Origin: a virus
Strand: one strand, 5' to 3'
IMG/VR virus record: IMGVR_UViG_3300040808_001540
Span: 1-55,725 of that record
Length of the DNA: 55,725 nt
Shown: positions 2-20,097 of the stretch, in pieces
How positions within the stretch are numbered: position 1 is the stretch's first letter
How the letters are laid out: every line of letters starts with the position of its first letter
Translations under genes and position numbers: made by a program
Notes under the pieces: generated by a model
Database searches by the model: none
The model's input: only the letters and a program-made list of their open reading frames with translations
Told to the model about the DNA's origin: nothing

Positions 2-1054
2 TACACAGAATACACTTACTTGGTAAACTGGTCAATGTGGGATATGAGTGTATACTGGGATGGCGGCAGTCTTAGTCCTGAATGGGATGATAGTTTAAAG
101 ACACCAGCAGGTATGTTGGCAAATAACCCATTAGGTTATGCATTGTTTAATACATACTTTGCTCCAGTGTTGAGCAAACCAAATTTTACCACAATAGAAA
201 GTATCTTTGGCGAAAATGACACAGGAGCATCAGGATATGTTGCTGATGTTGGAGGCGCTAGCCTTACAGGAAACTTTACAGTAGGCAGTTCAGAAACACT
301 AACACTTACTGTTACAGAAGATGCGGCAACTGAAGGAACTGAAACTTTTGCACTTGCACTAGATAATGGCGAAGCAAGTATTAATGTAACTATCAATGAC
401 ACAAGTGTTGAACCTGTTGCAACTTATGCCCTATCTTCTAGTGCAGATACAGTCAATGAAGGTAGTACATTTACAATTACGCTTTCAACTTCTAATGTTG
501 CAAATGGTACAAACGTTGCTTATACAATTACAGGCGTATCTAGTGCAGACATTAACAATGCAAGTTTAACCGGTGCGTTTAATATACAAAATAACACAAG
601 TCAATTAGTACTTCAAACAACAGCAGATTTAACAACCGAAGGCAATGAAATTTTAAATCTTGCTCTTGACAACGATGAAGATAATGTAAGTGTTACTATT
701 ACAGATTCAAGTCAAGGATCAGGAAATAGTTACAGTGCGTCAGTTACTGCACCAAGTAGTGCTTATTACTCGATATCAAATGGTAATGATAGAAACGGTC
801 CTGTATCAGGAAATAATGCTAGTTTTGCTGTAAATGATGGAGATATTATTACATTTAATGTCAACGTTAGCGGACATCCGTTTTATATTAAAACTACTCC
901 AGGAACAGGTACTGGTAATCAAGCATCTGGCGTGTCCGGACAAGGTAACACCAGTGGTGCAATCATATTAAATACAACTGGATACACAGGACAGACTTTA
1001 TACTATCAGTGCAGTTTACACAGTGGAATGTACGGAGCCATCACAATCACATAA
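2..1054 (+). CDS. Tail/fibre protein, 5'-truncated, with cupredoxin-like C-terminal domain
   Basis: The reading frame is open from base 2, so the true start lies before the window; the TTG at 20 is only an internal codon. The visible part has two Calx-beta-like repeats (each with an 'EG(T/N)E..(F/L)xLALDN' strand, about 300-400 and 615-705) typical of phage fibre proteins. The last 100 residues look like a cupredoxin: a His in 'GHPFYIK' (875) and a 'CSLHSGMYG' loop (Cys 1010, His 1019, Met 1028), the usual type-1 copper ligand set. It lies just before a large structural protein on the same strand. Tail location is inferred from composition and neighbours; metal binding is inferred from the ligands only. 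Confidence 0.7.
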   Translation, partial: YTEYTYLVNWSMWDMSVYWDGGSLSPEWDDSLKTPAGMLANNPLGYALFNTYFAPVLSKPNFTTIESIFGENDTGASGYVADVGGASLTGNFTVGSSETLTLTVTEDAATEGTETFALALDNGEASINVTINDTSVEPVATYALSSSADTVNEGSTFTITLSTSNVANGTNVAYTITGVSSADINNASLTGAFNIQNNTSQLVLQTTADLTTEGNEILNLALDNDEDNVSVTITDSSQGSGNSYSASVTAPSSAYYSISNGNDRNGPVSGNNASFAVNDGDIITFNVNVSGHPFYIKTTPGTGTGNQASGVSGQGNTSGAIILNTTGYTGQTLYYQCSLHSGMYGAITIT

Positions 1055-1088: not shown

Positions 1089-4000
1089 ATGGCAAGAACC
1101 AGAATAACAGATTTCGTTTTTACACCAGGTATTTCATACACAGGAAATAAATTCCCTAAGGCATGGGCATTATTTGATGCCAATATAGCATTTATGAAAG
1201 CAGAGGTGTCGGCTTATGTTGCCGCAAAAACACTAGAAGGTGCAGGTGACTGGGCAGGCTATACATATGATGCAGACAAATGTGCTAGAGATGTAGGCTA
1301 TATAATCGACGGGTATCAAAACGATTTACGTTATGGCGGTAACGAAAAAACTGTTAGTGTAGTTACAAAATATTGGGACGGTGATACTCCGCAAGTTGAT
1401 GGTTCAAGAACACCGGAAATTGAAACACATACTTTTTTACGTAATTTAATTCTGAATAATATTTTACTTAAAACAGTACAAAGTTCACCTTACCAACAAG
1501 CAACACCTCAGGTTACAACAGGAAATGATCCTGAAAGTGGTGCTGATACAAGATTACAAACACTTGCAAATATTACTATCGATGTTATTACAAGTGGTTT
1601 AGGTTCTATGCCGACAACAGAGTATAATGAATACTCTAGAATTAGAATACCACAAAGAATTTTGTTAGAAGATATTTTGTTAATTTCAAATGTTACAAGA
1701 GGCAAAGTATTATATAACTTTACTGACACAGCATTATTATCCGATGTTGAATATGTAAAATTTGATAGGGCCAATAGAGATTTTCAACAATTAGATTTTG
1801 AACACGATAGAGATTTTTACAATTATCTACAAAATAGTGATTATGTAACAACATTAAAATTATATGCTAATACTTCGACAGATCAATCAACTGATAATTT
1901 ACAAATCTTTGTTGACAAAGGAGAAACAATAACAAGACCTTTTGATTTTGGTACTGACGCTATTGAAAGACAACGTATTGCTACACCACTTTCGATGCTT
2001 GACGCTGACTTTGAGTATGGCCTACAGCCTACTAAATGGCAAGCAATTGGTATGCTTCGTGGGTATCCTTCGATTTATGAAATTCCAGGAACTGACACAA
2101 CAATATCTAATGTTACTTCAGACGTGTCAGCAGGTACAAACGGAGTTGGTCAATCATTAATTACAGTAACCACACTAGGACCACATGGATTCGATATTGG
2201 TACTCCTGTTACTATTAAAGGTTTAGAACCTAGCATAAAAGGCGCCCAAAGAGCAGAGGGCTCATTTATTATTACAGGGGTTCCTACTGAAAACACATTT
2301 ACATATTACGCAAAATCAAAAGTTGGTGTAACAAATCCAGAGGTATTATACACTCCGTATGTACAAGTGAGACAAGGTGGGTTTTATACCGGTGCTAATA
2401 TTTCAGAAGCACCAACATTTACAGTTACATCAAATGGTAGTTCAGGAAACTTTACCCTTGCATTAAGTACTCCAAGCGGTCAATCTAGATTGCCGTTTTA
2501 CGGTACTGTACCAGAACTAGGTGCTCCGCTAGATGATTTAGGTGCGGCATTTATTCCTACAGGTGCACAGGTTACTGGTGTTGTAGGCGACGGTAGTAAT
2601 CCAGTACTAACACTTGATGTTTCGGAAGATGCTCCTGCAGGGAGTAGCACTATTACAGTAGCAGATACAACAGGGTTGTTGCAGAACATGGCAATCGATG
2701 ATGACGGTGATGCAAACTTTATTCAAACTATTGCCGGACAACAGATTACACTGCTAAATGGAACCAGTGCAGAACTATCTGGAGATAATGTTAATTACAC
2801 AGGAGTTGAAGGTAACAATGTAAGTCCACAAGGTACAGGAGCAAGTTTTGATGTTACCCTTACTAATGGTACTTACAACGTTGTAGGTAATGCTCCTGGT
2901 AGCGGATATGAAATTGGCGATTATATTGTAATTGATGGTAGTTCAGTTGGCGGTCAAAGTGGTACACACGATATCGAAATACGTGTAACTGATAGTGATA
3001 CTCCAGGACAAGTTATTACTTTTGTTTTTAGTGGAACAGGATTTGACGGTGTTGCACAGTATGAAAATTTAGGTGGTACTACACTAGGTGGTAATGGTAC
3101 AGGTGCGGCATTTAACATTACAAAAAATGGTGTAAATTATACAGTTGAAATATTCAGTCCAAACGCTTCAACTGATTATAGAGTAGGCGACAGAATTAAT
3201 GTTCGTGGTTCTTTACTAGGCGGCCTTGATAGTACACACGACTGTTTGATTACTGTAAACAGTGTAGATAGTTTTGGTAACATTTTAACTATTACAGCAA
3301 GTGGTAGCAGTACAGATGCAAACGTAAACTATACTGGCCTAACATACACAACAACAGGTTCAGGTACACTTGCAGGTATTGATGTATTAAAAGATGCAAC
3401 AACATATACTGTTACATTACAAGACGGTGGTGTAAACTTTGCTACTACAGATACACTTACAATTAGCGGTGATCAACTAGGCGGTACAAGTCCTGCAAAT
3501 GATTTAACACTAACTGTTACTGCTGTCGATGTAAACGGAACAATTACAGCGTTTACTGAGTCAGGTACTGGTTTAAACAGTCAAACTTATGAAAGCCAAA
3601 GTGGTGATAATTTAGTTGGTACTGGAGCAATTTTTAATATTGCAACTAGTGGAGGAAACTATACTGGAACAGTAGTTGACGGTGGTGAAGGTTATGCAAC
3701 AGGTGATGAGATTGTAATTCTTGGTAGTGACCTAGGTGGTACTAGTCCAGATAACGATGCTACTATGACAGTCGCAGGTGCTGTTGATAGTATTGGTGGT
3801 ATTATTAATGTTACTGGCAGTGGTAATGCTGTTTCAGGAAATGGAGAATTTACAGGCGTTGAAGGATTTAACGAATCTCCAAGCGGTAATGGAGCAAGTT
3901 TTGATGTTAACAGAAATCTCGGAGTGTATACAATTAACGCTGTTGCAACAGCAGGTACTGGATATAAAGTAGGAAATAGAATAGTGTTATCAGGACAAAA

Positions 4001-6911
4001 CTTAGGTGGTCAAAGTCCTGCAAATGATTTAACTGTTACTGTCGACAGCGTAGATACAAATGGCGAAATTTTAACAACGTCAAATTCAGGATCAGCGGCA
4101 CAGGGTAGCCAATTAACAGTGTATAGTACTGTAAGTATGAGTGAATCGACGACTGGATTATTGCCACAAGGCACAACAATCGATTTTGATGCACTTGCAA
4201 CAATTAGTGTATCATTTGGTAGTCCACACGGATTAGTACCAGGGTCAACATTTATTGTTAGTGTTGCTTCTGACAACGGAACAAACAATCACTATCTAGC
4301 GGCAGGATCATTTATAGCAACATCTGTAAGTGCTTTAGATCAAATATCATATCAAGCATTATCGGTAGGTAATATTTCAACTGGTACAAACAATGATGAA
4401 CCTATACAAGGTACAGTTTATCCAAGACCAGATGCATTCTTCTTGCATAGACCATTTGACGGTGGTGTACAATTAGGTACTGGTTCTCCTGTACATGGTG
4501 CACAAGCAATACGTCAAAGTAAAAAATATATTAGATACCAGTCAGGTAAAGGTATTATGTACACAACTGGTGCTTTATTTGCACCAAGTTATGACTTATT
4601 AAGTATTACAGCAGGCGGTACAGCAGTTGGTAGTGTTATTACAGTAACTACTGACGATGTAGATCATGGGTTACAAGTTGGTGCTGGCATTAGATTAAAA
4701 GGCATTGTAACACCAGGTTACGATGGAAATTATAATGTAGATAGTATTGTTGATGAACGTCAATTTACAATAAGAGCAAAATATATACTAGGTGATACTA
4801 CTGCAACTCTTACAGATAACCCGCAAGTACAAACACGTACATGGCACGGGTCTGTGGTAAGAGCAGGTACATATGATGATCAAAATGGTATTTTCTTTGA
4901 ATACAATGGTAAGCACTTGTATTGTGTACAACGTAGTGCAACTTTCCAACTTTCGGGAACATGTACAGCATACAGAGATCAAAACGAAATTACTGGTTCA
5001 AATACAAGATTCCAAGATCAATTAAGTGTAGGTGACAGAGTTGTTATACGTGGTATGACACACGTTGTTACTAAAGTTAATAACCAGTCAAGCATTAACG
5101 TTTCACCAGACTTTAGAGGTGTAACTAATATTTCAGGTGCTAAGATGGCCAAGGTTGTTGATAAAAAAGCACGTCAAGGACAGTGGAACAGAGATAACTG
5201 TGATGGAACAGGCAAATCAGGATACGATCTTGATGTAACATACATGCAGATGATCGGGATTCAATATTCATGGTATGGTGCTGGTTTTATTGATTACATG
5301 TTCAGAGGTAGTGATGGTAACTTTATCATGGCACACAGAATGCGTAACTCAAACATTAACACAGAAGCGTATATGCGTACTGGTAACCAACCTGTGCGTT
5401 ATGAAGTTATTAATGAAAGTGCTATTGGTAAACTAAAATCAAATATTGGAGTTGCTGATGCATCAATTGAACTAGAAGATGCAAGTGATTTTCCAGATGA
5501 TGGTGGTACAATTTACATTGACAACGAACTTGTTACGTATACTGGAATAACAGGAAATACTCTAACAGGCTGTACACGTGAAGCACCATTACAGCAGTTT
5601 GCTTCAGGTGCAACTAGAACATACACAGCAGGACCTACGGCGACACACGCGGCTAAAACCGGACTAGTACTTGTAAGTAATACTACAACACCAATTATCC
5701 AACACTGGGGTTCTTCGTTTATTACAGACGGCGGCTTTGACAGTGATAGAGGTTTCTTGTTTAGTTACGCGGCGACCGGTGTTGCATTTGGTACTACACC
5801 ATTTACATCATTCCTAATTAGACTTGCACCAAGTGTTAGTAATGCACTTGTAGGTGATTTAGGTGAAAGAGAATTAATTAATAGAGCACAGTTGCTACTA
5901 GAAGGTTTGGAAATTACCACAGAACCTAATGCTAGTGGGCAAACAGGTAACATTGTTGTAACAGGAGTTTTAAACCCACAAAACTATCCTGCTAACCCAG
6001 ACGATATTGGTTGGCAAGGATTAACAGGTGTTGCACAGGGTGGTCAGCCAAGTTTCGCACAGATTGCACCAGGTGGATCGGTTAACTGGAACTCAGGTGC
6101 GGTTACACTAACAAGGGCCGCAACTACACTTGCACCAATTACAGAAACGATTGTTGCTATTGATAGAGGATATAGAAGTAATAACGATTATTGGGATAAT
6201 ACTATTAGACAAGGTAGAAATTTATTCTTTGTTACAGAAGCCTTTTATCAAGCAAACACAGATTTATTTGAATTAGGTACAGAGGTTGGCGATGGAATAA
6301 ACTTTTCATCAGGAACAACAATTACACAGGTTGGAAGTTGGACAACAGGTAGTGCTGGTTCAGGAACACTAAGACCAATTTATGTTTCAAGTAACGGTTT
6401 AAGAAACGTACCAATTGGTAATGTTAACTTAACATTTACAAAAACATTTAAAAATCCACCAACTTCAGAAATTTGGTTTACAAAAGCAAGTTGGGAATCA
6501 GCCGGTGCTACCCAAGGTACGTCAGTTGCATCAAGTGAAACTAGATTTCCTGCAAATACATCAGTATCAAGTGTATCATTAGAAAGTTATGGTTCAACAG
6601 AATACTATAAAGTACAGTTTTCTCAGAGTACTGATGCTAGTACACTTACCAAAGGCACAGATACAGTAACGTTTGACTTTACACAACCACCGTATGCACA
6701 GCCGGGTGAAACAATCTTTGGTTTTGTTGCTAGACCGGGAGAAAGATCAACGCTAGATTTATCATTCATTAAAGAATTAACCAATACCACACTAGGTGGA
6801 AGAGGTACATTCCCTAATGGTCCAGACGTGTTGGCACTGAACGTGTATAAAACATCCGGTACTGACGTTACAGGGGAAATTATTCTACGTTGGTCAGAGG
6901 CACAAGCATAA
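1089..6911 (+). CDS. Giant virion structural protein (tail fibre/baseplate type), 1940 aa
   Basis: A very long Gly/Thr/Asn/Ser-rich protein, clearly a virion component. The N-terminus carries the motif 'CARDVGYIIDGYQNDLRYGG' (about residues 75-94), a signature I associate with structural proteins of marine T4-like phages. The middle holds three 'HG(L/F)xxG(x)xVxIxG' beta modules (near nt 2185, 4225 and 4670) and five tandem repeats of about 87 residues (nt 2805-4106). The C-terminal half has a conserved block around 'MIGIQYSWYGAGFIDYMFRG' (nt 5240-5300) followed by 'YMRTGNQPVRYEV'. No catalytic motif is seen. Host-surface contact is plausible for such a protein but is inference. The start has an AGGA-rich sequence just upstream. 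Confidence 0.8.
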   Translation: MARTRITDFVFTPGISYTGNKFPKAWALFDANIAFMKAEVSAYVAAKTLEGAGDWAGYTYDADKCARDVGYIIDGYQNDLRYGGNEKTVSVVTKYWDGDTPQVDGSRTPEIETHTFLRNLILNNILLKTVQSSPYQQATPQVTTGNDPESGADTRLQTLANITIDVITSGLGSMPTTEYNEYSRIRIPQRILLEDILLISNVTRGKVLYNFTDTALLSDVEYVKFDRANRDFQQLDFEHDRDFYNYLQNSDYVTTLKLYANTSTDQSTDNLQIFVDKGETITRPFDFGTDAIERQRIATPLSMLDADFEYGLQPTKWQAIGMLRGYPSIYEIPGTDTTISNVTSDVSAGTNGVGQSLITVTTLGPHGFDIGTPVTIKGLEPSIKGAQRAEGSFIITGVPTENTFTYYAKSKVGVTNPEVLYTPYVQVRQGGFYTGANISEAPTFTVTSNGSSGNFTLALSTPSGQSRLPFYGTVPELGAPLDDLGAAFIPTGAQVTGVVGDGSNPVLTLDVSEDAPAGSSTITVADTTGLLQNMAIDDDGDANFIQTIAGQQITLLNGTSAELSGDNVNYTGVEGNNVSPQGTGASFDVTLTNGTYNVVGNAPGSGYEIGDYIVIDGSSVGGQSGTHDIEIRVTDSDTPGQVITFVFSGTGFDGVAQYENLGGTTLGGNGTGAAFNITKNGVNYTVEIFSPNASTDYRVGDRINVRGSLLGGLDSTHDCLITVNSVDSFGNILTITASGSSTDANVNYTGLTYTTTGSGTLAGIDVLKDATTYTVTLQDGGVNFATTDTLTISGDQLGGTSPANDLTLTVTAVDVNGTITAFTESGTGLNSQTYESQSGDNLVGTGAIFNIATSGGNYTGTVVDGGEGYATGDEIVILGSDLGGTSPDNDATMTVAGAVDSIGGIINVTGSGNAVSGNGEFTGVEGFNESPSGNGASFDVNRNLGVYTINAVATAGTGYKVGNRIVLSGQNLGGQSPANDLTVTVDSVDTNGEILTTSNSGSAAQGSQLTVYSTVSMSESTTGLLPQGTTIDFDALATISVSFGSPHGLVPGSTFIVSVASDNGTNNHYLAAGSFIATSVSALDQISYQALSVGNISTGTNNDEPIQGTVYPRPDAFFLHRPFDGGVQLGTGSPVHGAQAIRQSKKYIRYQSGKGIMYTTGALFAPSYDLLSITAGGTAVGSVITVTTDDVDHGLQVGAGIRLKGIVTPGYDGNYNVDSIVDERQFTIRAKYILGDTTATLTDNPQVQTRTWHGSVVRAGTYDDQNGIFFEYNGKHLYCVQRSATFQLSGTCTAYRDQNEITGSNTRFQDQLSVGDRVVIRGMTHVVTKVNNQSSINVSPDFRGVTNISGAKMAKVVDKKARQGQWNRDNCDGTGKSGYDLDVTYMQMIGIQYSWYGAGFIDYMFRGSDGNFIMAHRMRNSNINTEAYMRTGNQPVRYEVINESAIGKLKSNIGVADASIELEDASDFPDDGGTIYIDNELVTYTGITGNTLTGCTREAPLQQFASGATRTYTAGPTATHAAKTGLVLVSNTTTPIIQHWGSSFITDGGFDSDRGFLFSYAATGVAFGTTPFTSFLIRLAPSVSNALVGDLGERELINRAQLLLEGLEITTEPNASGQTGNIVVTGVLNPQNYPANPDDIGWQGLTGVAQGGQPSFAQIAPGGSVNWNSGAVTLTRAATTLAPITETIVAIDRGYRSNNDYWDNTIRQGRNLFFVTEAFYQANTDLFELGTEVGDGINFSSGTTITQVGSWTTGSAGSGTLRPIYVSSNGLRNVPIGNVNLTFTKTFKNPPTSEIWFTKASWESAGATQGTSVASSETRFPANTSVSSVSLESYGSTEYYKVQFSQSTDASTLTKGTDTVTFDFTQPPYAQPGETIFGFVARPGERSTLDLSFIKELTNTTLGGRGTFPNGPDVLALNVYKTSGTDVTGEIILRWSEAQA
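2805..4106 (+). repeat. Five tandem protein repeats of about 87 residues within the giant tail protein
   Basis: Five diverged copies begin with a Gly-rich turn of the type 'GxGAxFxV' and continue with 'GYxxGDxIxIxGxxLGG' and 'SPxND(L/A)T.TV.xVD..G.I'. Copies start near 2805, 3070, 3340, 3600 and 3855. The first and fifth share 'GVEG(N/F)N(V/E)SP'. They are protein-level repeats: DNA identity between copies is limited, so they are old duplications or under diversifying selection. Confidence 0.75.
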
Positions 6912-7036
6912 TGGAAATCACAGCAGATCTAATTAGAGCAATGAACGAAACATCGTGGGTAGATGGTATTGGTACTATTGTTGTACTATTATTAGCCTAT
7001 GCGGCTTATCGTTGGATTAAAAATAAGACTAAGTAG
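6911..7036 (+). CDS. Small single-pass membrane protein, 41 aa
   Basis: The ATG overlaps the stop of the preceding giant gene by one base (TAATG), which suggests translational coupling. The product has a short polar N-terminus, one hydrophobic helix of about 17 residues ('GIGTIVVLLLAYAAY') and a basic tail ('RWIKNKTK'), so it should insert as a single span with the tail inside the cytoplasm. The size and topology would fit a small phage membrane protein such as a holin-like or spanin-associated factor, but no family is recognised. Its end overlaps the convergent cupin gene by 8 bp. Confidence 0.6.
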   Translation: MEITADLIRAMNETSWVDGIGTIVVLLLAYAAYRWIKNKTK

Positions 7037-7418
7037 TTTTATCTTCTTCTTTTTGTGAATCACCAGGAATAATTCTATAATTATCTTCTACACTATCTGG
7101 TGTACTTACTTCTGTAAGACTAGAGTTGTCTTCTAGTGCTTCTAATTGGTGTGGCATTAGTGGAGGATTTCTCCAAACATCTCCAGGTCCTAATTCTTTT
7201 GTAAACATTACTGCTTTTGTTGTATCCACATAACGAAGTAAAAATTTACCATTGTTAATAAACCAAGTTTCATCTTTTTCTTTATGAAAATGCATTGAAA
7301 ATTTTGCACCTTTCTTTTCAAAGAAAAGTATTTTCCCGCAGTATTTGTCATTAGTAGCAAAGATTAGTTCATATCCCCAACCTTTATCTACTTTTCCACT
7401 TAGTCTATTAGTAGGCAT
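7029..7418 (-). CDS. Cupin-fold protein (sugar-metabolism type)
   Basis: 129 residues with a single cupin barrel: motif 1 'FSMHFHKEKDETWFINNGKF' gives His, His and Glu ligands, and motif 2 'GPGDVWRNPPLMPHQLEAL' gives the fourth His. The sequence around 'WGYELIFAT' resembles the small cupins related to type II mannose-6-phosphate isomerase. It is the last gene of the minus-strand operon and overlaps the end of hldD by 11 bp, so a role in nucleotide-sugar or heptose processing is likely but not shown. Isomerase, epimerase or sensor functions are all possible for this fold. Confidence 0.75.
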   Translation of the reverse strand: MPTNRLSGKVDKGWGYELIFATNDKYCGKILFFEKKGAKFSMHFHKEKDETWFINNGKFLLRYVDTTKAVMFTKELGPGDVWRNPPLMPHQLEALEDNSSLTEVSTPDSVEDNYRIIPGDSQKEEDKTT

Positions 7419-8244
7419 TAATGTATTCCTTAACTGTCATATAGTCTTCTATTTTACAATGTTTATTTAAATTTGTCAAGTCTGCACAAGTATATTCTTG
7501 ATATTGTCCTTTTAATTTTTCTGGCATGGGAATAGTTTCAATAGTTGCCCCAAACTTACTGGCAATAGTATCAGCAACACTTTGGAAACTTGTAGTTGTT
7601 CCTGTACCAACATTAAATATTCCGCTAGTATCTTGTGAAAGCATTTTTTCGTGTACTCTACATACATCACTTACACAAATAAAATCTCTAACATAGTTGT
7701 CGCTGTTTTCAAAAACTTTTATCACTTTATCTTTTTTGGCTTGTTCAGTAAATTTGTGTACAGGACTTGCTTGGTCACCTTTGTGTTCTTCTTTTGGCCC
7801 ATATACATTAAAGTACCTAAACGCTTGAATGTTCATGTTAAACTCTTTATTGTAGATACCTGCTTCAACTAAAAATCTGTCAATAAGATACTTGCTCCAT
7901 GCATAAGGACTTTGTGGTAAACATTTACTATCTTCTTTGTATCCGTCTAAACCTGGACCATACACACTAGCAGAACTTGCTATTTGCATGTTAACACCAA
8001 ACTTATCACATATTTGAATTAGATTCATTGTGAATTCGTAATTTTGTTTAAGCACTTTTTCCACATCTGTTTCTGTTGTAGAACTAATAGCACCTAGGTG
8101 TATTACCCAATCAAATTTTTCTGGATTAGGTAAAACGTCAGGTCCCTTCCAATCAAAGCCTTCAATACTATGTCCGCGGTCAACTAGATAAAATGCTAGA
8201 TTTTGACCGATGAACCCAGCGTCTCCTGTCATTAATATATTCAT
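7408..8244 (-). CDS. hldD: ADP-glycero-manno-heptose 6-epimerase-like SDR protein (HldD family)
   Basis: 278 residues of the extended short-chain dehydrogenase family. The NAD(P)-binding 'TGDAGFIGQNLA' is at the N-terminus (the first Gly of the usual TGGxGFIG is Asp here). 'HLGAISSTTETD' is close to the HldD signature, followed by catalytic Ser in 'SSASVYG' and YxxxK in 'YAWSKYLID'. 'FNVYGPKEEHKGDQAS' and 'RDFICVSDV' are also HldD-like. Known HldD converts ADP-D-glycero- to ADP-L-glycero-manno-heptose for LPS core. It lies two genes after HldE in the same operon, which supports the assignment. It is shorter than the roughly 310 residues of bacterial HldD. A related nucleotide-sugar epimerase cannot be excluded. 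Confidence 0.85.
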   Translation of the reverse strand: MNILMTGDAGFIGQNLAFYLVDRGHSIEGFDWKGPDVLPNPEKFDWVIHLGAISSTTETDVEKVLKQNYEFTMNLIQICDKFGVNMQIASSASVYGPGLDGYKEDSKCLPQSPYAWSKYLIDRFLVEAGIYNKEFNMNIQAFRYFNVYGPKEEHKGDQASPVHKFTEQAKKDKVIKVFENSDNYVRDFICVSDVCRVHEKMLSQDTSGIFNVGTGTTTSFQSVADTIASKFGATIETIPMPEKLKGQYQEYTCADLTNLNKHCKIEDYMTVKEYINAY

Positions 8245-8732
8245 GTAGCAAAGTCCACCATAAAACTTCTTCTAGGTTCTTTAGCAGGATATACTCCGTG
8301 CCATACGTCCCAGTTCATCAAAATTAATTTGCCTGGTTCAGGCTTAAATGTTCTATGAACATCATCATATATAGTATACATTAAACCGTTTAATGTTGTC
8401 AACTTGTCTTCTTCGGGTTGTGTATCAAAATATAAAATTGTAGCAACACTATCTTGGTTATGTCTATGTAATGTTTGATATCCAAAATCTCTATAATATA
8501 CACCCCAGATGTTTAATATCTTTCCAAAATTCCAATTAGGTATAATACTTTGTATTGCTTTGTTGTAGTCTTCTTTTATTTTCCAATCAAACGCATTAGG
8601 TATACCTGGTTGTCCAATATCAAATCCTACAGTAGTACTATCTGTGTTGTAATTTTCTTTGTTCTTTTCTGACCATTCATTATAAATTTCCTCGTAGTCT
8701 TTCCAGTTAGGCAAATAGGCTTCGACAATCAT
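8241..8732 (-). CDS. Putative 2-oxoglutarate/Fe(II) oxygenase, 163 aa
   Basis: Shows the double-stranded beta-helix pattern of small phage 2OG-Fe(II) oxygenases: 'LHRHNQDSVATILYFDTQ' (proximal His pair and strand), 'PGKLILMNWDVWHGVYPA' (distal His) and 'EPRRSFMVDF' (Arg for the 2OG carboxylate). The proximal motif is His-x-His rather than His-x-Asp, as also in the oxygenase at 48401. It overlaps HldE and HldD by 4 bp at each end, so it is part of the heptose cassette. Its substrate is unknown; hydroxylation of a sugar or of a protein is equally possible. Confidence 0.7.
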   Translation of the reverse strand: MIVEAYLPNWKDYEEIYNEWSEKNKENYNTDSTTVGFDIGQPGIPNAFDWKIKEDYNKAIQSIIPNWNFGKILNIWGVYYRDFGYQTLHRHNQDSVATILYFDTQPEEDKLTTLNGLMYTIYDDVHRTFKPEPGKLILMNWDVWHGVYPAKEPRRSFMVDFAT

Positions 8733-9967
8733 TCTTTGATCCTTCCTATAATATCTGTTGTGCTATGACCTTGAATTGTAGGAAATATTTTTACTTCTGC
8801 TAATTCATGACCAACTGTTGTTTCTCTTGTATAGTCACCGCCTTTTACAATAATATCAGGTCTAATATTTTCTAAAATTTCTTGAGGCGTATCTTCTGCA
8901 AATACAACAACTTCATCTACCCACGGTAGCATTTCTAATTGACGTTTTCGTGTTACAAAATCATTTACAGGTCGTCCATCGCCCTTTAAACGCCTTACAC
9001 TTTCGTCATCATTAATACCTACAATTAGTTTTTGTCCTAAATTTTTAGCATACTTTAGTAGTTCTAAATGTCCTGGGTGTAGTATATCAAACACACCATT
9101 TGTCCATACAACGCCTCTATACAAGTCTTCAAAACTTACAGGATGTACTCCTCTTTTTTCAACATTTCTAGCACTTGCATAACAGGCTAATTTACAACTA
9201 TCTTGAATATTCATGTTTTTAATAACATGGCCGTATACTAACACTGCTAAAAAAGTATCTCCTGCACCAGTAACATCTGCAACTTCTCTAACATCTTCTT
9301 TAAAATGCCAGTGATCTTTTTTGTTTATAACATGCACACCGTTTGCACCATCAGTAACAACCAACCATTCCCAGTTAAATTGAACTAGATGTTGCTTTGC
9401 TTTTGCAATGTCAAACTCTCCAAACCAACTGTTATATTCAGACATATTAGGTTTTACTAAAAAACAATCTTTGTACATTTGTGGCATTTGTTTTGGATCT
9501 ACAAACACTTTTACATCTTTTAAACTGTTCATTAGTTCTAGATCAATAACACCTTTATTGTAATCACTTACTACAACTACATCATTATTATTAACATTAA
9601 GTGATTTCTTTGTGTCACCTTGATAGTGTGTTTCTCTATCCCAACGTAGGATATGTTGACCACCTTGACCTACAAGCCTAGTTTTTGTTGTTGTTAATTC
9701 ATTATCAAATGAAACATTACTGGTCAGTGTATTACAGTCTTTTAGTAATTCAATGACTTTATAACCTTCTTTGTCACTACCTACTGCACCATGTAAACTA
9801 ACGTCTACGCTTAAATTTGCAAGGTTTAAAGCAAGATTTCCTGCACCACCTACACTGTATTCTTGTGATTGTTCTTTTAGTACAGGTACGGGTGCTTCTG
9901 GACTCATTCTATCTGCTGAGCCGAGAATCCAACGATCAAGCATTATATCGCCAATTACTTTAATCAT
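8729..9967 (-). CDS. hldE: Bifunctional heptose-7-phosphate kinase / heptose-1-phosphate adenylyltransferase (HldE)
   Basis: 412 residues with both HldE domains. The N-terminal PfkB-type kinase shows 'GDIMLDRWILG', the substrate loop 'SVGGAGNLALNLANL' and the catalytic 'VTGAGDTFLAVL'. The C-terminal nucleotidyltransferase (from about residue 285) shows 'TNGVFDILHPGHLELL' with the HxGH motif and 'IVGINDDESVRRLKG'. Known HldE phosphorylates D-glycero-manno-heptose-7-P and later adenylates the 1-phosphate to ADP-heptose. It is somewhat shorter than the E. coli enzyme (477 aa) but both active sites look intact. GmhA and GmhB, the other steps of the pathway, are not in this window and may come from the host. 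Four-base overlaps on both sides indicate coupled translation. Confidence 0.93.
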   Translation of the reverse strand: MIKVIGDIMLDRWILGSADRMSPEAPVPVLKEQSQEYSVGGAGNLALNLANLSVDVSLHGAVGSDKEGYKVIELLKDCNTLTSNVSFDNELTTTKTRLVGQGGQHILRWDRETHYQGDTKKSLNVNNNDVVVVSDYNKGVIDLELMNSLKDVKVFVDPKQMPQMYKDCFLVKPNMSEYNSWFGEFDIAKAKQHLVQFNWEWLVVTDGANGVHVINKKDHWHFKEDVREVADVTGAGDTFLAVLVYGHVIKNMNIQDSCKLACYASARNVEKRGVHPVSFEDLYRGVVWTNGVFDILHPGHLELLKYAKNLGQKLIVGINDDESVRRLKGDGRPVNDFVTRKRQLEMLPWVDEVVVFAEDTPQEILENIRPDIIVKGGDYTRETTVGHELAEVKIFPTIQGHSTTDIIGRIKE

Positions 9968-10410
9968 AAACTTTTTACTATTTCTACTATTGTGTCAATC
10001 TTGGTTTGATTTACTTTATTTTGAAGGGTATTACGTAATCCAACGTGCAACGGTTTTGGATAATCTTTTGCGTTTGTCCAAGCATAACCGCTATGTTCTT
10101 CATTTAGTACAGGAATAAACTCTTTTTCAACAATTACAACATACGTATGAAAAAAGAATTTTTGATCTTTGGATGTGAATAATTCTAATGGAATAATTTT
10201 TTCAAATTTTGGAGTTTCACCAATTTCTTCTTTGATTTCACGTTCGAGTGCTTTCCAAGGTGTTTCACCTTCTTCACTCATACCACCAACTAGGCCCCAT
10301 TGGCCTGCTGTTTTATGTTTTGTTCTTTGTAGAAATAAAAATTTGCCGGTGCTTTTTGCAAAAAATAATGCACCACTACAAATTATGTCTTTTACAGGAC
10401 TAGTCTCCAT
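9964..10410 (-). CDS. Nudix hydrolase
   Basis: 148 residues with a complete Nudix box of the form GX5EX7REUXEEXGU, beginning at 'GGMSEEGETPW' and ending in 'REIKEEIGE' (residues about 42-64), so the Mg-binding glutamates are present. The surrounding sequence ('FLFLQRTKHKTAGQWGLVGG') resembles the MutT/ADP-sugar class. Its start overlaps the end of gp15 by 19 bp and its end overlaps HldE by 4 bp. The position suggests action on a nucleotide sugar or housecleaning of dNTPs; the sequence alone does not decide. Confidence 0.88.
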   Translation of the reverse strand: METSPVKDIICSGALFFAKSTGKFLFLQRTKHKTAGQWGLVGGMSEEGETPWKALEREIKEEIGETPKFEKIIPLELFTSKDQKFFFHTYVVIVEKEFIPVLNEEHSGYAWTNAKDYPKPLHVGLRNTLQNKVNQTKIDTIVEIVKSL

Positions 10411-14879: not shown

Positions 14880-17800
14880 ATGGCACTATCATCACCCGGA
14901 GTTGAAGTTAGCGTAATCGATGAAAGTTTCTATACCCCAGCCGCTGGTGCTACAACACCTTTAATTGTTGTTGCTACTGCTGAAAGCAAACCATCAGGCA
15001 CAGGGACAGGAACTGCGGCAGGTACACTAGCATCAAACAAAAATAAAGTTTACTTAATTACCAGTCAGAGAGAGTTAACAGAAACCTTTGGTAATCCAAC
15101 TTTCTATACAGACACTTCTAATAACCCACTACATGGTAACGAATTAAATGAGTATGGTTTACAGGCGGCTTATTCATACCTAGGCGTGGCTAACAGAGCG
15201 TATGTTGTAAGAGCGAATGTAGACTTAGGAAAATTACAAGGATCAAACGATGCACCAGCAGGTGCTCCAGCAGACGGAACTTATTGGTTCGACACTGACG
15301 ATTCTTTATATGGATTATTCCAATGGAATGGTTCTACACAAACATTTACAAATAAAACACCAACTGTTATTGGTGCATCATCAGATCTTACAGGAGTAAG
15401 TGGTGCAACATACACAGGTGTTAAAGGAAGCGTTGGCGCAAAAGGCGACTATGCTGTTGTTACTTGGAATACAGAAAACAAAGTTTGGTACAAAAATGAA
15501 GATAACATTTGGGTACAAGTTGGTTCATATGACGAGTCAGCATTTGATGCGGTAGGATTTGCTACATCAACTACTTGGAACTCAACTACTTGGAAAACAA
15601 GTTGGCCAACAATTACTGCTACACTAACACCAAGTGCATTAGGAAGCACAAACGTTATTATTAACAATACACAGGTTAACAATGCAGGTTCAACACCAGC
15701 AACATTTGTACAAGCAATTAACGATGCGGCTATTCCAGGTGTTGGTGCTAAACTTGATGCTAATGATAGAGTTAAAATCTACTCAGACGGAACTTCAAGC
15801 ACAGATGGTACAACTACTGACGGTGCTATTTTAATTGAAGAAGGTTCAGGACAAATTTTAACTGACTTAGGTATTACAGCAGGATATTTCCATTCACCAG
15901 AACTACAAATTTCAGCACACAGTTCAGTTCCATTATGGAGAGCAACTGACAGGGTTGAAGTTGGTGGAACAGGTTACAGTGGATTAAGACCTACTGGTTC
16001 TGTTTACATGAAAACTACTACACCTAATTTAGGTGCAAGTTTAAAAGTTAAATTATACAGCACAGGTACAGGCTTATGGTCAACTGTTGCAACACCAATT
16101 TACAACAGTGCGGCAGAAGCAATTAAAGCACTTGATTCCGAGGGTGGAAAAAATATTCCAACTGGAACATTATTTGCTTTAGCAAACACAACTGAAGACT
16201 CAAAACAAATTGCAGACTTCAAATTGCACAGAAGACTAATTCCAAGTCCTACAAGTGCAACTGGTAGTGTTGCTAACCCAACTATTAGTGCTGGTACAAA
16301 AACATTTACAATCGCTGAAACAACAGCAGGTGCAACAGCATTTACAAGTGCAAGTGTAAGTTTCACAGGCACTGATGCAGATGCACTAGTTGAAGCAATC
16401 AGTGACGCAGGATTAACAAACGTGGTTGCAGAAGTTACTGCAAACGGAAATGTTAAAATTAGTCACACAGTTGGCGGCGAAATTAGATTAACAGACGGAA
16501 ATGGTACTCCGTTAGCAACAGCAGGCTTTACAAGTTCAGTTGACAACGTTTATGACGCTGGTAGCCAAGCAAGTGAAGACCTAGTTATTTCTAACTGGAA
16601 GCCATTAAGTTATGAAGCAAAAGCAGGTGCACCTACAAGTGATCCAGAAAATGGAACACTATGGTATAATACTACACTTGATGAAGTAGATATTATGGTA
16701 CACGATGGTACTACATGGAGAGGCTATAACAAAGTATATAGTGATGCTGATCCTAAAGGCCCTATTGTTTCAGCAACTGAGCCTACACAACAGTCAGACG
16801 GAACTTCACTAGTAAATGGTGATCTTTGGATTGACTCAGGCAACACTGAAACTTATGGACAAAAGATTTACAAATACGATGGCTTAAATCTAGAATGGGC
16901 GGCTGTTGATGTAGCAGACCAAACTTCAGAAGATGGTATCTTATTTGCTGATGCACGTTATGGTGAAACAGGTGTAACTGGTGATACTAAAGCAGACATT
17001 GAAGATATGCTTGTAAGTGATTACTTAGATCCAGACGCTCCAGATCCAGCATTATATCCAAGAGGTATGTTGCTATGGAACACTAGACGTTCAGGAAACA
17101 ATGTTAAAATCTTTAGAACTACACACATTGATATTAACGAAAACTCAGGTAGGAATAAGAGATTCCAAGGTACTGGCGCTGTTTACGATGGCGGATCAGA
17201 CGAGGCAATGGCTTCTTACAAAGTTAATAGATGGGTTGGTTGGAATACAACTGCTGAAGATGGTTCAGGATTGTTTGGTCGTAAAGCACAACGTAAAACA
17301 GTTGTTGCGGCACTAAAATCACAAATTGATACCAACGACGATCTAAGAGATGAAGAAACAAGAGCATACACATTGTTAGCGGCTCCTGGTTATCCAGAAC
17401 TAACAAGCAACCTTGTAAATCTAAACATTGACAGAGGAATTACTGGCTTTGTTGTAGCAGATACTCCATTTAGATTATCAGCAAGTGCAACTACGTTACA
17501 AAATTATGGTAACAACACAGGTAATGCACTAGCAGATGGTGAAGATGGATTTGTAACATATGATGAGTATATGGCAACATTTTATCCATCAGGATTTACA
17601 ACAGACTTAACTGGTAACAACATTGTTGTTCCACCAAGTCACATGATGCTTAAAACTATTGCACTGAGCGATCAGGTATCGTTCCCATGGTTTGCACCAG
17701 CAGGTACAAGACGTGGTGGTATTAGCAACGCTTCAAGTGTTGGTTATATTAATGATGAAGGTGAATTTACACCAGTATCATTAAACGACGGTACAAGAGA

Positions 17801-18227
17801 TACAATGCAAGGTGCTAAGATTAACCCAATCACATTCATTACTGGAAGTGGATTGGTTAACTTTGGACAAGTTACAAGAGCAAGAAACGCAAGTGCATTA
17901 GATAGAATTAACGTAGCACGTTTAACAGCGTACCTAAGACGTCAATTAAATCTACTTGCTAAACCGTTCTTGTTTGAACCAAACGATAAGATTACACGTG
18001 ATGAGATCAAACAAGCGGCAGAAAGTTTATTGCTTGAATTAGTAGGTCAAAGAGCACTATACGACTTCCTAGTTGTATGTGATGAAACTAACAACACACC
18101 AAGCAGAATTGATAGAAATGAACTTTACTTAGACATTGCTATTGAACCTGTCAAGGCTGTTGAATTTATCTACATACCATTACGCTTAAAGAACACAGGC
18201 GAAATAGCAACTTTGGGGGCTCAATAA
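14880..18227 (+). CDS. 18: Tail sheath protein gp18, with large insertion
   Basis: 1115 residues against 659 in T4. The N-terminus 'SSPGVEVSVIDESFYTPAAG' with 'TPLIVVATAESKP' and 'YLITSQRELTETFGNP', and the C-terminal half from 'GYPELTSNLVNLNIDRGITGFVVAD' (about nt 17395) to 'YIPLRLKNTGEIATLGAQ', are the conserved sheath domains that polymerise around the tube and contract. Between them (about residues 125-730) lie two beta domains of the 'xxVxAxVxAxGxVKI' type (nt 15620-15880 and 16260-16530) and four short Trp/Gly modules such as 'GTYWFDTDD' and 'GDLWIDSGN'. These would sit on the outer sheath surface. Strong late promoter and Shine-Dalgarno. Confidence 0.95.
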   Translation: MALSSPGVEVSVIDESFYTPAAGATTPLIVVATAESKPSGTGTGTAAGTLASNKNKVYLITSQRELTETFGNPTFYTDTSNNPLHGNELNEYGLQAAYSYLGVANRAYVVRANVDLGKLQGSNDAPAGAPADGTYWFDTDDSLYGLFQWNGSTQTFTNKTPTVIGASSDLTGVSGATYTGVKGSVGAKGDYAVVTWNTENKVWYKNEDNIWVQVGSYDESAFDAVGFATSTTWNSTTWKTSWPTITATLTPSALGSTNVIINNTQVNNAGSTPATFVQAINDAAIPGVGAKLDANDRVKIYSDGTSSTDGTTTDGAILIEEGSGQILTDLGITAGYFHSPELQISAHSSVPLWRATDRVEVGGTGYSGLRPTGSVYMKTTTPNLGASLKVKLYSTGTGLWSTVATPIYNSAAEAIKALDSEGGKNIPTGTLFALANTTEDSKQIADFKLHRRLIPSPTSATGSVANPTISAGTKTFTIAETTAGATAFTSASVSFTGTDADALVEAISDAGLTNVVAEVTANGNVKISHTVGGEIRLTDGNGTPLATAGFTSSVDNVYDAGSQASEDLVISNWKPLSYEAKAGAPTSDPENGTLWYNTTLDEVDIMVHDGTTWRGYNKVYSDADPKGPIVSATEPTQQSDGTSLVNGDLWIDSGNTETYGQKIYKYDGLNLEWAAVDVADQTSEDGILFADARYGETGVTGDTKADIEDMLVSDYLDPDAPDPALYPRGMLLWNTRRSGNNVKIFRTTHIDINENSGRNKRFQGTGAVYDGGSDEAMASYKVNRWVGWNTTAEDGSGLFGRKAQRKTVVAALKSQIDTNDDLRDEETRAYTLLAAPGYPELTSNLVNLNIDRGITGFVVADTPFRLSASATTLQNYGNNTGNALADGEDGFVTYDEYMATFYPSGFTTDLTGNNIVVPPSHMMLKTIALSDQVSFPWFAPAGTRRGGISNASSVGYINDEGEFTPVSLNDGTRDTMQGAKINPITFITGSGLVNFGQVTRARNASALDRINVARLTAYLRRQLNLLAKPFLFEPNDKITRDEIKQAAESLLLELVGQRALYDFLVVCDETNNTPSRIDRNELYLDIAIEPVKAVEFIYIPLRLKNTGEIATLGAQ

Positions 18228-18231
18228 TGAA

Positions 18232-18239
18232 GATAAATA
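18232..18239 (+). promoter_or_regulatory. Late promoter box GATAAATA for gp19
   Basis: Located 4 bp after the gp18 stop. A leader follows with AAGGAG (18249-18254) 7 bp before the gp19 ATG. It should boost tube protein over read-through from gp18. Confidence 0.75.
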
Positions 18240-18261
18240 AAACTGTAAAAGGAGCAAGATA

Positions 18262-18888
18262 ATGGCAATTTCAAGTTTAAGTAGATTTACAGTTCCATTA
18301 GCAAGTGACCAGTCAGCATCCACCCAAGGTTTGTTGATGCCAAAACTAAAGTATCGCTTTAGAGTATCACTTGAAAATTTTGGTGCTGGAAGTCCGAGTG
18401 TAGAATTAACAAAGCAGGTTATTGATGTAACAAGACCTAATGTAAACTTTGAATCTGTAGCAATTGATGTCTACAACTCAAAAGTTTACTATGCAGGTAA
18501 ACATACATGGCAACCAATCACAATCACTCTAAGAGATGATGTGAACAACTCAGTTAACAAACTGTGCGGTGAGCAACTTCAGAAGCAATTTGACTTCTTC
18601 GAACAGTCAAGTGCGGCATCTGGTGTTGATTACAAGTTCAAAGGTAGAATCGAAATACTTGATGGTGGTAATGGCGCTAATGCTCCTAGCGTACTTGAAA
18701 CTTTCGAGTTAGTAGGTTGCTTTGTTCAAGATATTAACTACAACCAGTTATCATACAGTGATTCAAATCCAGTTGATATTCAACTACAAATCCAATATGA
18801 TAATGCTATTCAAACTAATGGTGCAGGTCAACCAAGCGGCTTAGGCGGCGCAATTGGCAGAACAATTAGAACGTTAGCAACAGGTTAA
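18262..18888 (+). CDS. 19: Tail tube protein gp19
   Basis: 208 residues, somewhat longer than T4 gp19 (163). 'LMPKLKYRFRVSLENFG', 'LTKQVIDVTRPNVNFES', 'YYAGKHTWQPITITLRDDVNN' and 'FVQDINYNQLSYSDSNPVDIQLQIQYDNA' are the tail-tube fold signatures shared with gp19. The protein forms the hexameric rings inside the sheath. It has its own late promoter and ribosome binding site and is followed at once by a strong terminator, so it is a single-gene, high-level transcription unit, as expected for a protein needed in many copies. Confidence 0.93.
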   Translation: MAISSLSRFTVPLASDQSASTQGLLMPKLKYRFRVSLENFGAGSPSVELTKQVIDVTRPNVNFESVAIDVYNSKVYYAGKHTWQPITITLRDDVNNSVNKLCGEQLQKQFDFFEQSSAASGVDYKFKGRIEILDGGNGANAPSVLETFELVGCFVQDINYNQLSYSDSNPVDIQLQIQYDNAIQTNGAGQPSGLGGAIGRTIRTLATG

Positions 18889-18908
18889 TAAAAACTTTTA
18901 AAATTTAA

Positions 18909-18941
18909 GGTCGGAGACGTAAAAATCTCCGGCCTTTTTTT
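18909..18941 (+). terminator. Strong Rho-independent terminator after gp19
   Basis: A 9-bp GC-rich stem (GGTCGGAGA / TCTCCGGCC, one G-U pair), an 8-base loop and seven T residues. It ends transcription of gp18-gp19. A new late box starts 4 bp after the T tract. Confidence 0.93.
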
Positions 18942-18944
18942 ACG

Positions 18945-18952
18945 ACTAAATA
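18945..18952 (+). promoter_or_regulatory. Late promoter box ACTAAATA, 5 bp before the ATG
   Basis: Reads ACTAAATA-ATAGT-ATG directly after the terminator. There is no room for a Shine-Dalgarno in a transcript starting at the expected point, so the mRNA is predicted to be leaderless. Confidence 0.7.
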
Positions 18953-18957
18953 ATAGT

Positions 18958-20097
18958 ATGGCAAAGTTAACAAAGTTTTTAGGAAACGTATTCAACGGTA
19001 TATTCGGAAGTGAAGGCGACATGCGTGATTATCAACACGCGGCTCGTTTGTTTACTGATGACTACATGCGTCTTGCACCTAAGGTTGGATTTTTATATCA
19101 TGTAACATTTAATATTAATAATATTGCGTTACGATCACCAGATGCTAGTTTTAACAGAGCAAGTCCACAAATTGAATGCGGTATGCTAGTTAAGGATGTG
19201 AAATTACCTGGAATACAAGTACAAACAGATACAAAAAATCAATACGGTAAAAAAACAAATTACCAAACAGCAGTAACATACGCACCTGTTACAATTAATT
19301 TTCATGATGACAATGACGGACTAACCAATGCGTTCTGGCAACAATATTTTAAAGCAAACTACAACGATAGTTTATATTGGCAGGAACTTTATAAGCAAAC
19401 ACCTTATCAAGGATCAGAGCAATATGTTAAGTTTGGTTTAAACAGTGATAGAAATAAAAACTTCTTTCAAAATGAAGGTGTTAGCATATATCAATTAGCA
19501 CGTCATAGATTTTTTGAATTTACACTAATTAATCCTATGATACAAAGTTGGGATCCGCCAAACATGACTGCTGGTAGTTCACAACCTGTAGAGAATCAAA
19601 TGACTGTTATCTATGAAGGTGTAAAATATGCAACAGGCAGGATTACTACTGATAATCCTACAGGATTTGCAACACTGCACTACGATAGAACTCCTTCACC
19701 GTTAAGTGTAATGGGAGGAGGAACAGCAGGATTTTTTGGAGCAAATGGTGTACTTGCAGGAGGCTTAGATGTATTCGGAGATGTTGCAAGTGGTGATGCT
19801 TTTGCAAATCCATTTGCATTTATTGGTACTGCAATTAAAGCCAAGAACACAATTGATAATGCAAAACAGTTAACTAAAGAAGGTGTACGTAACGAAATCC
19901 AAGGCATTACAGAAAAAAGTTTAATAAGAACTGCTAGACAAACAATTGATCAAAAAGGTGCTGACAAGTTTGATGCGGCAAAACGTACTAAAGCAGAATC
20001 CGGCAATCCATCCGGAACTGCATCTGGTCAATTAGAAAACAATCAACAAGGTGCCGGGAATAATGATACTACAAATCAAGAAACCGTTGGAAGATAA
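18958..20097 (+). CDS. Tail-tube-fold baseplate/tail protein (gp48/gp54-like candidate)
   Basis: 379 residues. The first 250 resemble a tube-fold protein: 'FLYHVTFNINNIALRSPDAS', 'VKDVKLPGIQVQTDTKNQYG', 'VTINFHDDNDGLTNAFWQQYF' and 'YEGVKYATGRI' follow the gp19 pattern of strands. The C-terminal 130 residues are Gly/Ala/Asn-rich and probably helical then disordered. A tube-like fold with a C-terminal extension suits the tube initiator (gp54) or tube cap (gp48), but marine phages carry other tube-like proteins, so the identity stays open. It starts a new transcription unit after the terminator. Confidence 0.6.
   Translation: MAKLTKFLGNVFNGIFGSEGDMRDYQHAARLFTDDYMRLAPKVGFLYHVTFNINNIALRSPDASFNRASPQIECGMLVKDVKLPGIQVQTDTKNQYGKKTNYQTAVTYAPVTINFHDDNDGLTNAFWQQYFKANYNDSLYWQELYKQTPYQGSEQYVKFGLNSDRNKNFFQNEGVSIYQLARHRFFEFTLINPMIQSWDPPNMTAGSSQPVENQMTVIYEGVKYATGRITTDNPTGFATLHYDRTPSPLSVMGGGTAGFFGANGVLAGGLDVFGDVASGDAFANPFAFIGTAIKAKNTIDNAKQLTKEGVRNEIQGITEKSLIRTARQTIDQKGADKFDAAKRTKAESGNPSGTASGQLENNQQGAGNNDTTNQETVGR

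Follow-up and report, generated by a model that had tools for sequence, protein, structure and literature searches.

INTRODUCTION

Blue copper proteins are known as cellular electron carriers. Amicyanin, in which the ligand loop has the spacing C-x2-H-x2-M, works as a free electron carrier in the periplasm, and rusticyanin, plastocyanin, and nitrite reductase are also redox proteins. Cyanophages are known to carry the plastocyanin PetE as an auxiliary metabolic gene (PMC3037559). Metal sites have also been placed on phage tails, in the form of iron-binding HxH motifs in T4 gp37 and in the tail fibers of marine phages, for which a role in attachment has been proposed (PMC11705849).

Here we analyze a domain encoded at one end of the window, by which we mean the whole stretch of 55,725 nucleotides studied. 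This 55.7-kb fragment comes from a T4-like myovirus and carries genes for tail sheath, tail tube, large terminase, UvsX, helicase, and primase. The domain shares with amicyanin (TIGR02657) the C-x2-H-x2-M loop, the upstream His, and the cupredoxin fold, but it forms the C terminus of a large phage protein rather than a free protein. Its best structural matches are rusticyanin, plastocyanin, and the N-terminal domain of the three-domain nitrite reductase. The ligand residues align with those of these proteins at about 20% identity to the phage domain, although the ligand loops of rusticyanin and plastocyanin are longer. PetE is another type-1 copper protein encoded in cyanophage genomes, but it stands alone as an electron carrier, whereas the domain described here is fused into a tail-cluster protein. 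The iron-binding motifs resemble what we propose below in that a metal site on phage tail fibers has been proposed to act in attachment; they differ in being a trimeric HxH arrangement with neither a cupredoxin fold nor a Cys ligand. We found no paper on cupredoxin domains in phage tail proteins in the open-access literature (subscription papers and preprints were outside the scope of the search). What we describe is a known fold with a known metal site, in a setting for which no description was found in that literature.

RESULTS

A predicted cupredoxin domain with a type-1 ligand set

The domain is encoded at the end of the first open reading frame of the window, within a tail and structural gene cluster: a virion structural gene adjoins the frame, and genes for tail sheath and tube lie elsewhere in the window. 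The features are as follows.

2..1054, plus strand: open reading frame of 350 amino acids, cut off at the contig start; encodes the C-terminal part of a multi-domain tail-cluster protein
2..235, plus strand: C-terminal ~78 amino acids of a ~310-amino-acid nested domain with a zincin-like predicted fold
236..715, plus strand: Calx-beta-like repeats (matched by Pfam only weakly and below its cut-off; the repeats can be seen in the relative L001)
731..1051, plus strand: cupredoxin domain of 107 amino acids (from profile, alignment, AlphaFold2 model, and structural matches)
875..877, plus strand: codon CAT of the His ligand, domain residue 49, in HPFYIKT (read from the sequence)
1010..1012, plus strand: codon TGC of the Cys ligand, domain residue 94 (read from the sequence)
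1019..1021, plus strand: codon CAC of the second His ligand, domain residue 97 (read from the sequence)
1028..1030, plus strand: codon ATG of the axial Met ligand, domain residue 100 (read from the sequence)
1089..6911, plus strand: virion structural protein of 1940 amino acids (phrog_5838, 1.5e-246), the next gene after the cupredoxin frame

An earlier, sequence-only reading of this DNA had claimed a cupredoxin-like, beta-rich C-terminal domain with His 875, Cys 1010, His 1019, and Met 1028 in type-1 copper order, and the four codons are found at precisely these places. The predicted structure bears out the fold as well. AlphaFold2, run on an alignment of 71 sequences, gave a cupredoxin model with a pLDDT of 98.3 and a pTM of 0.90, composed of nine strands and no helix, and the top Foldseek matches of the model were rusticyanin, nitrite reductase, AcoP, and plastocyanin. 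The best VIA-align match was to Hyphomicrobium nitrite reductase, whose first domain superposes with an rmsd of 1.9 over 89 residues (Z 10.4); rusticyanin was matched at Z 9.3. The claim would have failed had the predicted fold been anything other than a cupredoxin; it was not, and a profile built from 17 phage copies agrees from sequence. Searched against the PDB, this profile matched nitrite reductase (4e-5), rusticyanin (2e-4), plastocyanin (3e-4), and amicyanin (1e-3). In the profile alignment, the four ligand residues of the domain fall on the copper-ligand positions of rusticyanin (His85, Cys138, His143, and Met148).

Family models gave signals of varying strength. At a permissive limit, Pfam Copper-bind matches 13 of the 17 members and the amicyanin model TIGR02657 matches 10 of the 17 (best 9.7e-7); single phage copies also match the NCBIfam plastocyanin and rusticyanin models at that limit. 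The window domain itself has no match to Copper-bind (PF00127) at the curated cut-off and none to TIGR02657, and in single-sequence searches of Pfam and the PDB it returned nothing useful, so that family profiles were needed. Its ligand loop reads C-x2-H-x2-M, the amicyanin spacing, and does not match the C-x2-H-x4-M loop of plastocyanin. Both the model and the profiles support membership of the cupredoxin superfamily, and the ligand set is conserved; that these side chains would meet at one metal is inferred only from the rusticyanin alignment, and copper binding is likewise inferred.

Several of these cupredoxins (L386 gp9, L283, and L276) are matched below cut-off by the Pfam family At5g54830-like (PF25489), which may itself be cupredoxin-like. 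Among the BFVD matches of the cupredoxin model are proteins of giant viruses, namely a Fadolivirus "blue type 1 copper protein" and beta-sandwich proteins of Pithovirus and Marseillevirus.

Conservation of the ligands

Related domains were gathered from phages and viral contigs into a first alignment of 17 copies (about 35 to 51% identical to the window copy, except for one that is near-identical), a later alignment of 71 sequences (about 42% identity to the window copy), and a unique set of 172. His49, Cys94, His97, and Met100 are invariant in the 17 copies. Just six columns are invariant across the 71 sequences (H49, G72, Y92, C94, H97, and M100), and because all four ligands are among them, we infer that the motif did not arise by chance. 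The complete His-Cys-His-Met set is present in 161 of the 172 unique copies. In the remainder, either the loop is absent or His, Cys, and His have been lost jointly (FAVM, YAQM, and FNQM); no copy among the 172 has lost one ligand alone. All four ligands are also kept in each of 25 bacterial copies.

Two trivial sources of this pattern were considered. Some scan patterns had included ligand residues, and the count was therefore redone on loci fetched with an unrelated domain as the query; all 17 unique copies of this independent set keep the four ligands, which rules out bias from the search patterns. Conservation of the Cys for a disulfide was rejected because the ligand Cys is the only Cys in most site-bearing copies (136 of 195).

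A second cupredoxin type was seen in L004 (residues 1391-1523 of the frame starting at 1009). It carries C-H-F-H-T-G-Q, with Gln replacing the axial Met, as in stellacyanin.

Spread among phages and the gp9 connector

The domain is attached to proteins of many kinds. In a set of 42 diverse phage proteins that contain it, the accompanying domains are collagen (14), S8 (14), the S74 tail-fiber chaperone (3), baseplate wedge (1), collar (1), and the T7 tail N terminus (1). Of 185 unique phage frames with the cupredoxin, 50 also have long collagen-like Gly-x-x repeats, a combination seen in L024 (P-SSM2) and in many viral contigs. The cupredoxin forms the end of the protein in 72 of 213 copies, and each of 17 phage records searched has between one and five matches.

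In S-SM1, the domain occurs in gp9, the baseplate wedge-tail fiber connector, where T4_gp9_10_N occupies residues 3-96 and a cupredoxin that has the full ligand set forms the C terminus. Two of the gp9 genes that end in this domain are as follows.

S-SM1, 74390-75613: gp9 gene ending in a cupredoxin
Syn9, 79017-80237: gp9 gene ending in a cupredoxin

The cupredoxin domain of gp9 is matched by 329 phage records, and in an even sample of these, the majority of rows are annotated as gp9 or as baseplate wedge tail fiber connector. All nine gp9 copies inspected keep H...C-x2-H-x2-M. We conclude that the cupredoxin is a module of most cyanomyoviruses, the C terminus of gp9 included, and is no rarity. 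The A2 profile found no copy in S-CREM2, a cyanomyovirus whose virion proteome has been published (PMC10665884). Looser models, applied to the 40-kb stretch examined, found nothing beyond a degenerate copy that lacks the ligands; the protein carrying it has been detected in the virion. This proteome lends no support to a virion location. The main texts of two papers (PMC3037559 and PMC2984593) do not state whether gp9 was detected in the virions of S-SM1 or Syn9.

The carrier protein and a nested zincin-like domain

The sequence-only reading had called the carrier a tail protein. Its gene does lie beside virion structural and tail genes, but the description is only partly right, because the frame encodes the C-terminal end of a multi-domain protein that is probably proteolytic, and not an ordinary tail fiber. 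The evidence for this comes from L001, whose cupredoxin domain is 97% identical to that of the window. There, an S8 subtilase domain, in which the catalytic Asp, His, and Ser motifs are present, precedes some five Calx-beta-like repeats, and the cupredoxin closes the protein; the corresponding upstream part of the window protein is off the contig. Subtilase and cupredoxin are also combined in S-CAM4, S-H9-1, ACG-2014i, and P-HM1. The window carrier, encoded directly 5' of the virion structural gene, is thus a multi-domain protein for which proteolytic activity is probable.

The repeats in the window are broken by the end of a ~310-amino-acid domain that is absent from the matching stretch of L001. 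This domain is found in many marine phage structural proteins and is complete in L213 (2326-3261), L200, L255, L266, and L275. It sits in frame within tail-cluster proteins of different kinds: L266 and L275 have it in their S8 catalytic domain, and the window, L002, and L003 have it among Calx-beta-like repeats. In this it resembles a mobile nested domain. It was modeled by AlphaFold2 with a pLDDT of 85, and nearly all of its best structural matches are zincin metallopeptidases (PPEP-2, Z 7.4); its conserved motif is EExxEHxxHTxH, not HExxH. An assembly chimera near position 235 of the window, where the first 78 amino acids belong to another domain family, was considered and rejected because of a similar junction in L002 and L003. 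Contigs often start or end within the nested domain (the window at position 1; also L204, L205, L215, L227, L234, and L262), which is expected if a genome contains several copies of it.

Bacterial relatives and origin

Near-identical phages aside, the closest relatives found for the window copy lie at the C termini of surface proteins from marine Bacteroidetes (56-58% identity), and it forms a clade with them with a support of 0.988; other phage copies are at about 50% identity. These bacterial domains share both HPFYIKT and C-x2-H-x2-M with the window domain and are also C-terminal in large proteins. They differ in that they are cell-encoded and are found on surface proteins with LRR or InlB repeats or as short exported proteins. 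Two of them pass the Copper-bind cut-off (28.6 and 24.5 bits versus 21.2), and short stand-alone bacterial homologues begin with what appear, by eye, to be lipoprotein signals. It is likely that the domain has been exchanged between phages and bacterial surface proteins, in either direction.

DISCUSSION

We propose that the domain holds an intact type-1 copper site with an amicyanin-type loop and serves as a metal-stabilized surface or adhesion module of marine myovirus tails. We consider this proposal probable, if by no means secure, and copper binding, virion location, and adhesion are all inferred. The His-Cys-His-Met site would take up one copper ion, either after lysis or in an oxidizing compartment, and the bound copper would fix the small beta-barrel in a stable form that resists proteases and can serve as a surface module. 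On tail fibers, spikes, and the gp9 connector, such a module could act as a structural or adhesive head group facing the host surface. That the domain binds copper is inferred from its site, which is of the type-1 kind. We infer display on the virion because gp9 and S74 fibers are virion parts in T4 and other phages, and a stabilizing or adhesive role is inferred because the domain is joined to otherwise unrelated fiber proteins, often as a C-terminal cap. Virions are assembled in a reducing cytoplasm in which free copper is very scarce, and this counts against a copper site. A redox role or a copper "Trojan horse" role is possible by analogy with the iron proposal (PMC11705849) but has no direct support.

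The scarcity of copper where virions are assembled also favors a metal-free virion, in which the cupredoxin fold would merely have been put to use for structure or adhesion, with its ligand residues kept for packing. The fold can evidently serve without metal, since some phage copies keep the domain and lack the site, and the copy in the virion-detected protein of S-CREM2 is degenerate. However, the four ligand columns rank with the most conserved, no copy among the 172 has lost just one of them, and packing by itself would hardly be expected to preserve precisely these four residues in both fused proteins and bacterial lipoprotein-like homologues. We therefore regard the metal-free reading as unlikely, though worth keeping in mind. 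A chance motif in an unrelated beta domain can claim only that the window copy alone finds nothing in Pfam or the PDB; the model, profile, and conservation evidence oppose it, it is refuted as far as prediction reaches, and we give it virtually no weight.

Other readings accept the site and place it differently. Copper might act in attachment or triggering, either because a host uptake receptor mistakes the loaded tail for a copper ligand or because the baseplate is triggered by a change in redox state. In T4, gp9 links the tail fibers to the baseplate, and it is gp9 that the domain terminates here. Iron on phage tail fibers has already been proposed (PMC11705849). No receptor, redox partner, or copper measurement is known for such a role, however, and the domain also sits on collagen fibers and subtilases, away from gp9, so that we find this account quite improbable. 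The window protein could also be no part of the virion at all but a soluble subtilase-type enzyme, made during infection and released, in which the cupredoxin is a stabilizing or anchoring C-terminal domain. The S8 domain with its catalytic motifs in L001 and four phage relatives is consistent with this, as are the bacterial relatives, which are exported surface proteins and apparent lipoproteins. Yet the gene lies immediately 5' of a virion structural gene within the tail cluster, and the domain also occurs on S74, collagen, and gp9 proteins; we doubt strongly that the released enzyme is the right explanation.

If the preferred reading of a copper-stabilized surface module is extended, blue copper proteins would be working virion parts in marine T4-like phages. 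Type-1 copper would then be held by gp9 of most cyanomyoviruses, many fibers, and tail-cluster proteases, and the tail would be a copper-dependent, possibly redox-sensitive attachment or trigger device as well as a ligand for copper in seawater. We offer this extension only tentatively, as a possibility open to considerable doubt. An intact predicted type-1 site is nonetheless a recurring module of marine phage tail-cluster proteins, and the annotations of several hundred cyanophage records of gp9, the baseplate-tail fiber connector, are silent on it. If copper is bound, one could test directly whether phage attachment in the ocean, where copper is scarce yet toxic, depends on metal, and the module would widen the idea of iron on tails to a second metal, one with a well-understood visible spectroscopic signature.

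Other features of the window

At 14880-20097, the window encodes a tail sheath of unusual length (1115 amino acids), followed by two differing tail-tube-like genes. On the minus strand at 7029-10410 lies a run of genes whose translations, read by eye, resemble a cupin, an NAD-dependent sugar epimerase, a 2OG-oxygenase, an HldE kinase/adenylyltransferase, and a NUDIX hydrolase, which suggests heptose or LPS sugar metabolism.
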